The notes below the pieces were generated by a model that saw only the letters and a program-made list of their open reading frames with translations, searched no databases and was not told the origin of the DNA. DNA of 35,142 nt, taken from IMG/VR virus record IMGVR_UViG_3300027508_000022, positions 1-35,142 of that record. The stretch is one strand, 5' to 3'. The translations under genes and the position numbers were made by a program. Source of the DNA: a virus. Positions 10,157 to 21,912 of this stretch are shown piece after piece (the first letter of the stretch is position 1; the number at the start of each line of letters is the position of its first letter).

Positions 10157-10189
10157 ACCCCCTGCTAAATAAAATATTTAGCAGGGGGT
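10157..10189 (-). terminator. Rho-independent terminator after the Hsp20 gene
   Basis: A 13-bp stem (CCCCCTGCTAAAT with ATTTAGCAGGGGG) closes a 5-base AT loop and continues on the minus strand into TTTACTTTACTT. It lies 101 bases past the Hsp20 stop and separates that gene from the leftmost operon. The T-rich side shows that it serves minus-strand transcription. Confidence 0.85.
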
Positions 10190-17197: not shown

Positions 17198-17705
17198 CGT
17201 CCTCATCCTTTCTATAAGCTAGGTCAGTTGAGTAAACTTCCCCAGGTACTATTAAACCAAGTTTCATGGCGGTTGACAAGCCGCCTAATAAAGCTGAGAA
17301 ACCAATCATTCTATACATCATATGCATCATTTCAGTCTCTCTTTCAATTTCTTTTTCTAAAAACCCATCTGGTTCTCGTTTTTTAATTTCATCTATTTGC
17401 ATAGCAACAATGACATCAGCACCTAGCTCTGCAATCGTGGATATAAAAGGTATTAAATACTCAACGTTATCTAGACGTGCTTCGCTTTCGCCAGTCTCAT
17501 GCTCATGTCCCTCATCACTTACAGGGTTCATGCCTAACAGTAAAGCTAACTCGTTTGGGTGCTCAGATAGGTCCGTGTCGTATAGATACCAACGCATCAA
17601 CGTTCCTAACGGTATCTCTTCCTTAAAGTTCTCAAAAGATACGTTAAAGGACTCTCCACCTTTTTTAAAGAAACGATTAAACCAACTCACTTTGCCTCTC
17701 CCCAT
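17187..17705 (-). CDS. Hypothetical acidic protein between polymerase and recA
   Basis: The 172-residue protein starts with a basic SWFNRFFKKGG stretch, has an acidic middle (SDEGHEHETGESEARLD), a helical region EIERETEMMHMMYRM, and a hydrophobic stretch MIGFSALLGGLSTAMKLGLIV that could touch a membrane or form a core helix. It overlaps the polymerase gene by 19 bases. No family is recognised. Confidence 0.65.
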   Translation of the reverse strand: MGRGKVSWFNRFFKKGGESFNVSFENFKEEIPLGTLMRWYLYDTDLSEHPNELALLLGMNPVSDEGHEHETGESEARLDNVEYLIPFISTIAELGADVIVAMQIDEIKKREPDGFLEKEIERETEMMHMMYRMIGFSALLGGLSTAMKLGLIVPGEVYSTDLAYRKDEDDEQ

Positions 17706-19687
17706 CGCTGAACAACCTTTACATCTGCAATAAGCGGTACCTCTAGTAAGTTGATGCCTTCCATTGCTTCTCTAATAGCCTCTTTTGTTTCTTCAACAAG
17801 ATTGTCTGGGGTTAAAGTAACAAGTTCATCGTGTACGGTTAACAAGATACTAGCCCCCTCAGGAATCATCTGATGAGCCCTAATCATAGCAAGCTTCATG
17901 ATGTCAGCAGCAGACCCTTGGATACGTGTGTTGAACGCCTGACGCTCAGCCCCGCCACGCTTTAGGAAATCTCTAGAGTTAATTTCAGGTAAGTAACGCT
18001 TGCGCCCCATCAGGGTGGATACATACTGTTTACTTCTAGTAGCCCCAATAACCTTAATGCGATAGATATTTACGGACTTAAACTTATCCGCAAAGTTTCC
18101 TAATAAAGTACGTGCTTCGGTAACGGTACATCCAATAGAACGAGCAATCTTATCTGGACCTACGCCGTATGCCATAGATAAAACAAGAACCTTTCCAGCC
18201 TGACGGTTTACCTTCATGACATCTCCAACAGTTGTATAGATGTCTCCACCTTCTACATAGTTTTTAACCATGGTTGGGTCCTTAGACATAGAAGCAATGA
18301 TGCGAGGTTCAATCTGTGAGTAGTCAGCGACCACTAGTTTGTATCCTGGCGGTGCATAGAACAGGTTACGGATAGCCTTACCATGCGCAGTTGCTGGGTT
18401 AGGAACATTCTGCAAGTTTGGGTTACGACTAGAGAACCGACCAGTCTCAGCTCCATGTTGAATAAAGTCAGCGTGGATACGCCCGTCAACTAATAGGCTT
18501 TCCTTGTACTCTACTTTAGATTTACCACCAACAGTACGGACAACGTCACCTCCCAGGTATGGGATTACGTACGTGCTCTGTAACTTATTTAAATCTGCGT
18601 AGGTGAGCAGAGCGTGAACTAACAGGTTCTTCTCACGATAAGGCTCTAATGCCTCAGCTGACACAGAATAATCTACGTAGTCTAGGTCTATACCCTTCAT
18701 CTCTTTGTCTTGACCCTTTGCTGTAAGAATCTTTGGGCTTAATCCTTGACCACCATCGGACTTCTTGCTGTATAGGAGGTACTGCTTTTCTTGGTTAGAG
18801 TTAATGTTAAATACTCGACCAGCAATCTTATAAATCTCAGCCCTAGCTTTTTCTATATCTATCTCTAACTGGGTATTAAGTATAGCTAGCTGCTCGGTGT
18901 CAATAGGTGCGCCATGCAACTTCATATGACATAAGACTTCTAATACGCCCATCTCTAGGTTCATAATATTATCTAGGTCAGCTTCTGTAATCTTTTTAGC
19001 TACCTCTTTCCACAGTAAGAAAGTGTACTTTGCATCTAGGTATGCGTATTTAGCCACAGTGCTAAACGGGTGAACCTCTACCTGAGCGCCAACACCCTTC
19101 TCCATCTCATAACCCAACTCGCGCTTTAAACAGTCGTCAAGGCCACACTTGTTTTTATTACGGTTGTCATATACAAATGAGCCAACCATAGTGTCAAAGT
19201 AAGGGCCTGTAGGTATTTTTTTATCTAGATACTTAGAGACAGAGCATAAATCAAAGACTAAGTTGTGACCTACTTTTAACTTGTCACTAAAAAATAAAGG
19301 TTTTAATGCTTCAAAGACTTCGGCTGGGAAGAGTTGTTCAGGAGCAGGGCCGAAAGTTTTAGTAGCTTTTTTGCGGTCACGAGAGTAATCACTCTCTCTA
19401 GCCTGTAAGCCCGCGAGAACGCGCTTCTCTCCTTGCCCCGTGAGTGGGAAGCTCTCTGATATAAACTCACCATTTGGGTGGCCCAACGGAATAACATCCC
19501 CGCGACCATGTGTCGCAAGGCTAATCCATAATACTTGGTTGACAACTGGAACTCCTCGTCTTGCTCCAACAGTTTCTACGTCAAAAGCAAAAGCATCTTG
19601 CTTAAGATAGTAGACAACCATCTCATCTAACTGTTCTCTTGTTGTAATAATGTTCAATTGATACCCCTTAAGAGTCTGGGGAGCCAT
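17687..19687 (-). CDS. polA: Family A DNA polymerase with 3'-5' exonuclease
   Basis: The 666-residue protein has exonuclease motifs AFDVETVG (~34-40), KVGHNLVFDL (~170) and YAYLDAKYT (~218), then polymerase motif A VADYSQIEPRI (~452), motif B with Arg495 and Lys499 ending MAYG, and motif C TVHDELVTL. There is no 5'-nuclease domain, as usual for phages. The residue four after the motif B lysine, equivalent to E. coli Phe762, is Leu503. It is the replicative polymerase. The ATG used here lies in a perfect hairpin (19675-19721) and lacks an SD; a TTG at residue 11, after AAGGGG, is a possible alternative start. Confidence 0.95.
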   Translation of the reverse strand: MAPQTLKGYQLNIITTREQLDEMVVYYLKQDAFAFDVETVGARRGVPVVNQVLWISLATHGRGDVIPLGHPNGEFISESFPLTGQGEKRVLAGLQARESDYSRDRKKATKTFGPAPEQLFPAEVFEALKPLFFSDKLKVGHNLVFDLCSVSKYLDKKIPTGPYFDTMVGSFVYDNRNKNKCGLDDCLKRELGYEMEKGVGAQVEVHPFSTVAKYAYLDAKYTFLLWKEVAKKITEADLDNIMNLEMGVLEVLCHMKLHGAPIDTEQLAILNTQLEIDIEKARAEIYKIAGRVFNINSNQEKQYLLYSKKSDGGQGLSPKILTAKGQDKEMKGIDLDYVDYSVSAEALEPYREKNLLVHALLTYADLNKLQSTYVIPYLGGDVVRTVGGKSKVEYKESLLVDGRIHADFIQHGAETGRFSSRNPNLQNVPNPATAHGKAIRNLFYAPPGYKLVVADYSQIEPRIIASMSKDPTMVKNYVEGGDIYTTVGDVMKVNRQAGKVLVLSMAYGVGPDKIARSIGCTVTEARTLLGNFADKFKSVNIYRIKVIGATRSKQYVSTLMGRKRYLPEINSRDFLKRGGAERQAFNTRIQGSAADIMKLAMIRAHQMIPEGASILLTVHDELVTLTPDNLVEETKEAIREAMEGINLLEVPLIADVKVVQRWGEAK

Positions 19688-19721
19688 ATTAGAAAGGGGA
19701 TTAAGAACATGGCTCCCCAGA
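19664..19721 (-). promoter_or_regulatory. Hairpin/pseudoknot over the DNA polymerase start codon
   Basis: TCTGGGGAGCCAT (19675-19687 plus-strand reading) and ATGGCTCCCCAGA (19709-19721) are perfect 13-bp complements with a 21-base loop. In the mRNA the 3' arm begins with the polA AUG. The loop holds CCCCUU, complementary to AAGGGG just downstream of the stem (plus-strand 19664-19669), so an H-type pseudoknot can form. No U-run follows, so it is not a typical terminator. It probably controls polymerase translation, comparable in principle to the T4 gp43 operator. Structure is seen; function is inferred. Confidence 0.65.
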
Positions 19722-19731
19722 ACGCTAGTTG

Positions 19732-20397
19732 TTAGAGAAGTGAGTTGGCGATTTCTTCAAGTTCCGCCCATGTGTGTTCCTTAATAACGGAACGTTCGAA
19801 CGGCTTGATTTCGGCAACACCCTTTTCTGCCATGTCTGAATCGATTCCCCAGTCTTCCATGAGGTCGCGTGGCTTAACTGCGTTGAGGTGATACACAGTT
19901 TGCTGCATCTTTCCAGTGCGGCTAATAGCCCAGTAGTTCTTGGTCAAAGGACCTTGTGGTGAGAACTCTGCTGCGTACAATGTTTTGTACAAGCGAGGGC
20001 TTGCGATAAGCATCTGACGTACAACACCTGCTGGAGTAACCACTGCCATCGTGAATGCTCTCTTGTCTTCAGGCTTGCTGCCTAGCTTTACGCATAGTGG
20101 GTCGTTAGCCCCTAGTGATACATACGAGCGCTTGCCCACAGTTTTCTGCTGTAGGAAGTGTTGCTTGTAGATAGCAAAGGGACCATTCTGGTCAATGAAC
20201 TTAACAATTGTGAACTCACCATCAACAAACTTAAATTCTGTTGGGTAGTCACCTGCGGATACGGTGAGCTTTTCGGCTGCATCCCATCCTGATTGTACTG
20301 CGTTACTGCTTGATTGAGTCGGACGCTCATCAATTTGTGAGTCCACTGAGAACTCGTCTACTTTTGGAAGAAAATCTTCCGTGCGATTGATTGACAT
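19732..20397 (-). CDS. Putative single-stranded-DNA-binding protein
   Basis: From ATG at 20397 (SD AAAGGAA just upstream) it encodes 221 residues, MSINRTEDFLPKVDEFSVDS and onward; a longer reading to 20466 would lie inside the previous gene. The middle is rich in beta strands (EFKFVDGEFTIVKFIDQNGP, AFTMAVVTPAG) and the C-terminal end is acidic and hydrophobic (HTWAELEEIANSLL), a layout seen in phage SSBs whose acidic tails recruit partners. It lies directly before polA. No direct family motif is certain, so the function rests on composition and position. Confidence 0.45.
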   Translation of the reverse strand: MSINRTEDFLPKVDEFSVDSQIDERPTQSSSNAVQSGWDAAEKLTVSAGDYPTEFKFVDGEFTIVKFIDQNGPFAIYKQHFLQQKTVGKRSYVSLGANDPLCVKLGSKPEDKRAFTMAVVTPAGVVRQMLIASPRLYKTLYAAEFSPQGPLTKNYWAISRTGKMQQTVYHLNAVKPRDLMEDWGIDSDMAEKGVAEIKPFERSVIKEHTWAELEEIANSLL

Positions 20398-20398
20398 A

Positions 20399-20872
20399 TC
20401 ATTCCTTTGTTTCGTTTGTTTTAGCATCTTCGACTTGGATACGTTTCCAAGTATCAGCAATAGCATTTGTTAATTGCTGATTTGGCCAGTCTATACGTTT
20501 CACGTGCAAAACTCCAGACTTACCAAACAGTTCAACAACTGCTTCTATCTGGGCCCGAGAGTACAGTCTCCGACCTTTATGGTCATCCCCGTTACGGTTC
20601 TTCTTTGTGGGAAGTCGGTAAGGTGATGGCGGTAGGTATCCCTCTTTAATCCATGTACGGACTGTTATTACAGGTCTTCCTAACGCTTGTGCGAGAGCGC
20701 CAATGGTATAGAACTCTATGTCCTTACCATTAGGTAGAGTCTTTTTATAGGATGTTGTATCCCATGTATCTGGAACATCTACCTCGGGCTTTTTTAATTC
20801 CCGACGCTTTCGTTTACTGTTTGGATAATAAGTATCCAAATCAGAAAACATCTTATCTATCTCGTCTGACAT
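20399..20872 (-). CDS. MerR/excisionase-like helix-turn-helix protein
   Basis: In the 157-residue protein, residues ~55-115 read YTIGALAQALGRPVITVRTW, IKEGYLPPSPYRLP, and GRRLYSRAQIEAVVELFG, a MerR-type winged helix: a helix-turn-helix followed by the recognition of the wing and an R-x-Y-S/T motif. The N-terminus is acidic then basic. It may regulate the replication run it belongs to, or act as a directionality factor. Its stop is 1 base before the SSB-like gene start. Confidence 0.75.
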   Translation of the reverse strand: MSDEIDKMFSDLDTYYPNSKRKRRELKKPEVDVPDTWDTTSYKKTLPNGKDIEFYTIGALAQALGRPVITVRTWIKEGYLPPSPYRLPTKKNRNGDDHKGRRLYSRAQIEAVVELFGKSGVLHVKRIDWPNQQLTNAIADTWKRIQVEDAKTNETKE

Positions 20873-20881
20873 TTAAGCCTA

Positions 20882-21292
20882 TTACTTTCCTACAATAAAT
20901 GCATAAGTAACTTTAGATGGGAACATCGTGTCAATGTCATCCTCTGTTAAATACCCCTCATAGAAAGCAGCCATGATTGCTGCTTCATCAATTTGTGGAA
21001 CCATCTTAATACACTTATCGCGGATACCTTTTTTAGTAAGGATATCTTCTGCTACATCCATGTCTAGGTTTTTTGCAACACGACGTTGCTTCATAATAGT
21101 TACATCTTGTTCCTCTGACATCTCTGCAGGGACTGTAAGAACAATGTGACCGCGTTCATCGGCGGCGCCAAACTCATCAATAGACTGAGTTAGTCGACCT
21201 TTAATTTCTGTTTGTCTTTTACTTAAAAAATCTACTTCATCTTTAAGTTTTTGATATTGATTAATAAACGAGCGGATAGCTGTTGTATCCAT
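20882..21292 (-). CDS. Coiled-coil protein, unknown function
   Basis: The 136-residue protein starts with a coiled-coil (FINQYQKLKDEVDFLSKRQTEI KGRL region, residues ~8-35), then a small alpha/beta part and an acidic stretch (EGYLTEDDIDTMFP). The N-terminal helix recalls Gam-type nuclease inhibitors, but the match is too weak to assign. It is the first gene after the promoter/operator at 21313-21352. Confidence 0.6.
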   Translation of the reverse strand: MDTTAIRSFINQYQKLKDEVDFLSKRQTEIKGRLTQSIDEFGAADERGHIVLTVPAEMSEEQDVTIMKQRRVAKNLDMDVAEDILTKKGIRDKCIKMVPQIDEAAIMAAFYEGYLTEDDIDTMFPSKVTYAFIVGK

Positions 21293-21687: not shown

Positions 21688-21758
21688 CTCCCACCCATGG
21701 ATTCGAACCACGATAGACGCCTCCAGAGGGCGCCGTCCTGCCGTTAGACGAGGTGGGA
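21688..21758 (-). tRNA. tRNA-Gln (anticodon CTG)
   Basis: The minus strand folds as acceptor TCCCACC/GGTGGGA, D stem GTCT/GGAC, anticodon stem GCGCC/GGCGT with loop CTCTGGA (anticodon CTG), and T stem CGTGG/CCATG with loop TTCGAAT. The discriminator is G. CCA is not encoded and would be added by the host. Third tRNA in a cluster of three. Confidence 0.9.
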
Positions 21759-21759
21759 C

Positions 21760-21835
21760 TGGAGCGGTTGACGAGGCTCGAACTCGCGACCTGCACCTTG
21801 GCAAGGTGCCGCTCTACCAACTGAGCTACAACCGC
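21760..21835 (-). tRNA. tRNA-Gly (anticodon GCC)
   Basis: Acceptor GCGGTTG/CAACCGC, D arm GCTC...GAGC, anticodon stem GCACC/GGTGC with loop TTGCCAA (anticodon GCC), T stem GCGAG/CTCGT with loop TTCGAGC. It is the only one of the three that encodes the 3' CCA, after discriminator T. Confidence 0.95.
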
Positions 21836-21839
21836 ATCG

Positions 21840-21912
21840 CTGCCCCACCTGGGCTCGAACCAGGGACCTAGCGATTAACAGTCGCTCGCTCTGCCAGCTG
21901 AGCTATAGGGCA
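21840..21912 (-). tRNA. tRNA-Asn (anticodon GTT)
   Basis: Acceptor TGCCCTA/TGGGGCA, D arm GCTC...GAGC, anticodon stem AGCGA/TCGCT with loop CTGTTAA (anticodon GTT), T stem CCTGG/CCAGG with loop TTCGAGC. CCA is not encoded. Its first base directly follows the TAA of the SNF2-type helicase gene, so it must be cut out of the helicase mRNA. Confidence 0.95.

Follow-up and report, generated by a model that had tools for sequence, protein, structure and literature searches.

What does a long, perfectly paired hairpin do in the gap between a putative single-strand DNA-binding protein (SSB) gene and the DNA polymerase gene of an uncultured phage? The DNA is IMG/VR record IMGVR_UViG_3300027508_000022, positions 1 to 35,142, and this full stretch of 35,142 nt is referred to below as the window. 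The hairpin belongs to the minus-strand mRNA and is intercistronic, with the SSB gene on its 5' side and the polymerase gene on its 3' side (60 nt between). An earlier note, made from the letters of the window, had described the two 13-base arms, a CCCCUU in the loop that matches AAGGGG 5 nt past the stem, and a polymerase AUG within the 3' arm that has no Shine-Dalgarno (SD) sequence of its own, and had proposed an H-type pseudoknot that controls translation of the polymerase. Most of what is known about how phages control their replication proteins at the level of translation comes from T4 and its relatives. The parts of the locus, in the order of the mRNA, are:

19732..20466, minus strand: upstream gene, taken to code for a gp32-like SSB (longest ORF 244 aa; stop codon 19734-19732)
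19722..19731, minus strand: 10-nt spacer CAACUAGCGU from the SSB stop to the stem, containing the UAG of a YAG motif
19709..19721, minus strand: 5' arm of stem S1 (from the sequence, and from covariation in relatives)
19688..19708, minus strand: apical loop of 21 nt, or of 15 nt with the stem counted as 16 pairs
19694..19699, minus strand: CCCCUU, the loop strand (anti-SD) of the putative second helix S2; CCCC occurs in the loop region of 111/140 relatives
19675..19687, minus strand: 3' arm of S1, containing an out-of-place AUG at 19687
19670..19674, minus strand: CUCUU, 5 nt, loop L3 of the putative pseudoknot
19664..19669, minus strand: AAGGGG, the SD and the second strand of the putative S2
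17687..19657, minus strand: family-A DNA polymerase of 656 aa with an almost certain UUG start at 19657 (family from Pfam, start from relatives)

The order on the mRNA is SSB stop, 10 nt, S1, 5 nt, AAGGGG, 6 nt and UUG. The arms, of 13 bases each, pair perfectly and all the coordinates given earlier hold on the sequence, as does the match of CCCCUU (19699-19694) to AAGGGG (19669-19664); the stem can be drawn with 16 pairs including one G-U (94% complementary, 15 nt between the arms). A 101-nt segment folds with -30.4 kcal/mol (z -4.74), which none of 200 shuffles equalled, and a detector that required at least ~11 stem pairs together with at least 5 pairs of a loop:downstream helix found this to be the sole site of its kind on both strands of the 35-kb window. 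Searches of Rfam with the window and seven relatives returned only tRNA at the gathering score, and at E <= 10 a 301-nt stretch gave just mir-1276 and SSRC10, both sub-threshold; a nucleotide search of phage records gave no match.

Relatives were collected by five IMG/VR scans and from four GenBank phages, which together supplied at least 387 loci with the polymerase N-terminus and, from these, at least 169 distinct 90-nt upstream regions. The 29 of the 169 regions whose best match is a Streptomyces phage polymerase were set aside, and the other 140 belong to the wide clade of the window. Clustering of these 140 at 75% identity gave 44 clusters, which stand for sequence identity and not for independent lineages.

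The polymerase itself is readily placed, with matches to Pfam DNA_pol_A (E 5.9e-90) and to the 3'-5' exonuclease domain DNA_pol_A_exo1, and its nearest named relatives, at about 40% identity, are from the Streptomyces phages GiJojo, Alone3, BRock and others. Its host was not found by a scan of genome contigs, in which the best 80 of 563 matches were all of 36% identity or less. The earlier note had put the start codon at the AUG in the 3' arm, with TTG 19657, the eleventh codon in that frame and 6 nt past AAGGGG, as a fallback. At the place of this TTG the 140 relatives have ATG in 95 cases, TTG in 42, GTG in 2 and ATA in 1, and N-I-I-T follows directly after that codon in 124 of them. In 99/140 relatives the frame is closed by a stop among the 20 preceding codons (in one, L072, only four codons ahead of the polymerase ATG), an in-frame ATG ahead of any such stop is found in 3/140, and alignments to the Streptomyces phage polymerases start at query residue 8-13. 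The start codons of the relatives, the upstream stops and the point at which homology begins thus indicate that the polymerase almost certainly starts at UUG 19657 with AAGGGG as its SD, and AUG 19687 was rejected as the start on the same counts of upstream ATGs and stops. An ATG in the 3' arm is confined to the nearest relatives of the window, and AUG 19687 itself, as noted earlier, has no SD; judged from this comparison it is incidental. The start codon of the polymerase is thereby corrected, in favour of the fallback.

The upstream gene starts in relatives at the position of ATG 20397, which gives a protein of 221 aa. The window protein has no match in Pfam or PHROG, and among 28 aligned homologues two have a match to PHROG 14578 (single-strand DNA-binding protein); a search of PDB sequences with the SSB profile gave a best E of 0.032, to an unrelated entry. 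An AlphaFold model (pLDDT 75.7, N-terminal 50 residues disordered) yielded nothing in Foldseek at E <= 0.001, and gp32 was absent among the 50 matches listed. A second look at the model with VIA-align placed RB69 SSB and T4 gp32 chains in the top four positions (Z 9.6, 8.9, 7.5 and 7.3, with RB69 SSB at 9.6 and T4 gp32 at 8.9), the next unrelated row being at 5.4. The gene at the same place in the Streptomyces phages Alone3 and GiJojo is annotated as SSB. On account of these structural matches and syntenic annotations we take the product, from its model, as a gp32-like SSB, in line with the earlier suggestion of an SSB gene at this place. Immediately before the SSB gene lies a gene for a MerR/excisionase-like HTH protein (20399-20872, minus strand), and a MerR-like gene is likewise placed in GiJojo. 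Three consecutive tRNA genes (21688-21912, minus strand) stand just upstream of the replication cluster, as they also do in L012, L022 and L036.

The hairpin is nearly ubiquitous in the clade of the window. Folding was constrained by barring the last 12 folded nt from pairing, which keeps the SD out of S1, and a hairpin of at least 10 pairs was then obtained in 139/140 upstream regions and in 43/44 cluster representatives; in L295 the folded hairpin is a different one, further upstream, and in L375 the fold likewise chose a different hairpin, the true arms being seen by eye. The length of the stem by itself is unremarkable, since 110 of the 205 other gene starts in these loci have a hairpin this long. 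What sets the polymerase start apart is the mean fold energy (-29.4 kcal/mol vs -14.1 kcal/mol at the other starts) and a CCCC in the apical loop (30/44 cluster representatives vs 1/205 other gene starts). S1 ranges from 10 to 20 pairs across relatives and its sequence is not conserved. The spacer from the SSB stop to the stem is 9-11 nt in 87/140 regions and 22/44 clusters, and a YAG (YAGN) motif stands just 5' of the stem in 28/44 clusters, vs 12.1 in shuffles. Among the Streptomyces phages, the same gap has a hairpin without a CCCC loop in Alone3 and BRock and an ORF in GiJojo and pSt2308; many of their IMG/VR relatives have neither hairpin nor ORF in it. The strong, different hairpin of the cultured phages Alone3 and BRock (L158 and L159) has TAGACAGAC 5' of it, which resembles the YAG motif.

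A strong GC-rich stem immediately past the SSB stop, followed by a flank somewhat rich in T (on average 3.3 of 8 nt), could alternatively be a transcription attenuator or partial terminator that leaves less polA mRNA than SSB mRNA, the match of loop and SD being secondary, and the hairpin in the gap of Alone3 and BRock is terminator-like too. We think this unlikely, because T is scarce after the stem (only 7/42 have at least 5 T among the 8 nt) and because the C-run and its match to the SD are left unexplained. The S1 hairpin is absent from the terminator-like sites that our scan gave, but that scan accepts loops of 3-8 nt only, so that S1 is undetectable by it. Elsewhere in the window, strong inverted repeats at 10157-10189 and 162-198, with 15-nt arms 3 and 7 nt apart, look terminator-like by eye.

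The arms should have diverged in step if S1 is maintained as a structure; an absence of covariation among related phages is what the earlier note had named as counting against it. Compensatory changes were found in both groups of relatives that were aligned. In the L138 group 15/17 S1 pairs have changed on both sides and 91.6% of the cells are paired (38 sequences, 34 distinct), and in the L080 group the values are 12/16 pairs and 95.8% (24 sequences). The observed whole-structure scores of both groups were reached by 0/500 shuffles, with the single exception of 'further pair types' in the L080 group, for which 102/500 shuffles reached the observed value; slid registers scored far below the true register in both. 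These counts cover 38/47 members of the L138 group and 24/31 of the L080 group, and the 62 of the L072 group lie outside them. L067, L295, L244, L361, L280, L288, L293, L283 and L286 were omitted from the first group, and five ACGUGC-loop sequences, L089 and L110 from the second; the omissions were made before counting, for dissimilar layout, and bias the counts in favour of the structure. Since the covariation exceeds that of shuffles and slid registers, the comparison of sequences shows that S1 is conserved as a structure of the RNA or, at the least, of a single strand.

The pairing of the loop with the SD can be followed in the same relatives. With a generous definition of the loop, CCCC is present in 111/140 regions, and the SD in these is GGGG in 89, GGG in 12, GGAG in 4, GAGG in 3 and lacking in 3; in the 29/140 loops without CCCC the SD is GGA in 12, GGGG in 7, GGAG in 6, GAGG in 3 and GGG in 1. 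On the deepest branch (6 rows) the five with a GGAG SD all have a CUCC loop, and the sixth, L188, has a GGGG SD and no C-run. Over the 44 clusters the complementarity of the loop to its own flank is 12.97 vs 10.74 +/- 0.30 for shuffled loops (the maximum of 500 being 11.56), with only 10/44 clusters reaching 0.05 individually. Energy tests were made on 42/44 clusters, L375 and L295 being omitted. The loop paired with its own SD has -7.17 kcal/mol vs -6.38 +/- 0.25 kcal/mol for swapped partners, 2/2000 swaps being equally good, and the loop:SD helix is at least as strong as that of the 16S tail with the SD in 29/42 clusters (-9.5 vs -7.5 kcal/mol in the window). The stem and loop-SD element combined was detected at polA in 27/44 loci, vs 17 other matches in 2 x 237,666 bases. 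S2 in the L138 group has 80.1% of cells paired and double changes in 2/5 pairs, and was tested jointly with S1.

Several observations temper this picture. A GGGG-type SD precedes polA in 28/44 clusters vs 37/206 other starts, but is not unique to it, since it also precedes another gene in many relatives. On the polymerase tree, a test of the association between loop and SD had just six supported independent pairs to draw on (2.1 in agreement, 0.7 opposed) and is not significant and underpowered. GGGG SDs occur without CCCC in L188, L281, L283 and L286, and with CCC in its place in L246, L247 and L304, and L306, L368 and L369 retain the CCCC loop with no SD-like sequence ahead of the polymerase start. 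Further, 12 of the 29 regions that lack CCCC form a sister clade (L357, L123, L124, L129, L155, L067, L062, L047, L048, L049, L059 and L061) in which the loop is a conserved ACGUGC and the SD is GGA. The ACGUGC loop lies ~40 nt before polA and is mostly the palindromic CACGUG, and it is possible that it serves as a kissing-loop dimer or as a protein site. A search for a complement to it was fruitless, as the positions of CACGU vary and much of it is the palindrome itself. The conserved G-run SD and C-run could also serve a protein. Taking both sides together, the complementarity and the swap test favour the H-type pseudoknot of the earlier note, with clade exceptions and a tree test short of significance; S1 is secure, and S2 is well supported by the sequences though not proven.

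Another SD in the window lies in a comparable setting. Ahead of a 136-aa ORF (20882-21292), the segment 21290-21360 on the minus strand has an AGGGG SD and a promoter-like box, TTGACA. Upstream of the same ORF many relatives have a C-run that is followed by a G-run SD and preceded by a -10-like box, whereas the clade with the ACGUGC loop has an AGGA SD enclosed by CCUAAC..GUUAGG. A second SD-masking hairpin before this ORF is possible, but transcription may start downstream of the C-run.

Long intercistronic stem-loops are often mRNA processing or stability elements, and the hairpin between the SSB and polymerase genes might be an RNase site or a decay barrier that protects the SSB mRNA, without any part in initiation. 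We consider this quite improbable, as it predicts neither the pairing of the loop with the SD nor the position of the C-run near the 3' arm.

A clear S2 can be drawn in 35 clusters, with a length of 5-8 pairs in 30/35, and the gap between the loop strand of S2 and the 3' arm is 0-1 nt in 23/35, which is the arrangement of H-type knots. An L3 of 4-8 nt is tight for an S1 of 13-20 pairs. By simple A-form phosphate geometry 13/35 clusters fit the whole of S1 and 22/35 need 1-5 basal pairs opened; in the window ~2 basal pairs of the 16-pair stem would need to open for S1 and S2 to coexist. On the other side, a stem beginning 9-11 nt after the SSB stop agrees with the position of the leading edge of a ribosome that has the stop codon in its A site, so that translation of SSB should not melt S1. 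Readthrough and frameshift pseudoknots have a spacing of about 10 nt, and a pseudoknot ~10 nt past the SSB stop might by this token be a recoding signal that drives readthrough or frameshifting into the polymerase. Such a fusion was rejected, as the frame from the SSB stop to the polymerase is unconserved (18, 13 and 13 of 44 clusters per phase), and we find a recoding role barely credible.

The reading that we regard as probable is that the element is a cis-acting, SD-sequestering H-type pseudoknot, placed between the SSB and family-A polymerase genes, that limits translation of the polymerase. S1 would hold the C-run, as an anti-SD loop, near the polymerase SD, and the C-run would pair with the SD 3' of the stem (S2) in competition with the tail of the 16S rRNA. 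As S1 begins where a ribosome terminating on SSB ends, it would remain folded during SSB translation, and one mRNA might in this manner give SSB in bulk and polymerase sparingly. We infer that S2 forms in the cell, that it is repressing, because it would occlude the SD, and that something opens or stabilises it, the candidates being ribosome traffic, SSB, the polymerase or a host factor. The translational control of the polymerase that had been proposed earlier is likewise favoured by inference from this occlusion. A further-reaching version, which strikes us as somewhat unlikely, is that the element represents an unreported phage RNA family acting as a switch, in which the pseudoknot at the leading edge of the SSB-terminating ribosome shuts the polymerase SD and is toggled by ribosome traffic or by SSB or polymerase in free form. 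If this were true, the SSB:polymerase stoichiometry would track the amount of single-stranded DNA, and the logic of T4 gp32/gp43 would have been invented independently within one intercistronic element.

A tentative possibility, by analogy with T4, is that the hairpin is an autogenous operator that binds free polymerase or SSB, so that a protein in excess of its DNA target stabilises the closed state. This would add an actor to the pseudoknot and is not exclusive of it. The gene pair, a gp32-like SSB and a replicative polymerase, is suited to such a role, and T4 gp32 and gp43 each repress their own mRNA (PMC3014915); the YAG 5' of the stem (28/44) and, in the sister clade, the conserved ACGUGC loop are possible points of contact with a protein. 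On the other side, the sequence of the stem is unconserved, the polymerase here is of family A whereas gp43 is of family B, and the gp32 pseudoknot of T4 precedes gene 32 whereas the element here follows the SSB gene.

On the SD-sequestering pseudoknot reading, a compact element that spans 44 sequence clusters of uncultured phages links the gene of a gp32-like SSB to that of a family-A polymerase and brings its own anti-SD. With it one can ask whether an H-type pseudoknot with a long stem is able to gate initiation, and by what means a phage adjusts the ratio of SSB to polymerase on a single mRNA, and its natural variants (CCCC/GGGG, CUCC/GGAG, the ACGUGC loop and the lost C-run) amount to a ready mutant panel. 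We found no description of the element in the open-licence literature searched, nor in the accessible part of PMC2864571.

Among known systems, T4 gp32 represses its own mRNA by way of a pseudoknot operator and T4 gp43 its own by way of a hairpin operator (PMC3014915, PMC535899). The pseudoknot of T4/RB69 gene 32 lies about 67 nt upstream of the gene and nucleates gp32 on a UUAAA-rich leader, the SD being unpaired (PMC3014915, PMC535899). The element shares with it a phage replication gene, an mRNA pseudoknot, here a predicted one, near the initiation region and a gp32-like SSB nearby, but it follows the SSB gene, precedes polA and would pair the SD itself; a UUAAA-rich unpaired leader was not found, CUCUUAAGGGGUAUCAA being what stands 3' of the stem. 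The operator of T4/RB69 gene 43 is a 16-18-base hairpin with a UAAC loop, with no evidence of a pseudoknot in the accessible part of PMC3014915. Here too a hairpin lies close upstream of the SD of a replicative polymerase gene, but the polymerase is a DNA_pol_A protein with a 3'-5' exonuclease domain instead of a family-B enzyme, and the short UAAC-loop hairpin is replaced by 10-20 pairs with, in most relatives, a C-run loop. The preQ1 riboswitch classes include H-type pseudoknots with an anti-SD:SD second helix that turn the gene off by occlusion of the SD (PMC11625349). The second helix predicted here is of the same kind, whereas a conserved aptamer-like core and an Rfam riboswitch match are lacking and neither gene is metabolic. 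An autogenous pseudoknot is also present in the translational operator of E. coli rpsO (S15) (PMC3014915), which is a ribosomal protein system. Of the features of the class of SD-sequestering H-type pseudoknots, the element has a covariation-supported stem 1 and, by complementarity and the swap test, the pairing of the loop with a downstream SD, with clade exceptions and a tree test short of significance. Its working would be like that of the T4 gp32/gp43 operators, but it differs from the gp43 operator in polymerase family and loop, and from the gp32 operator in gene position and leader.
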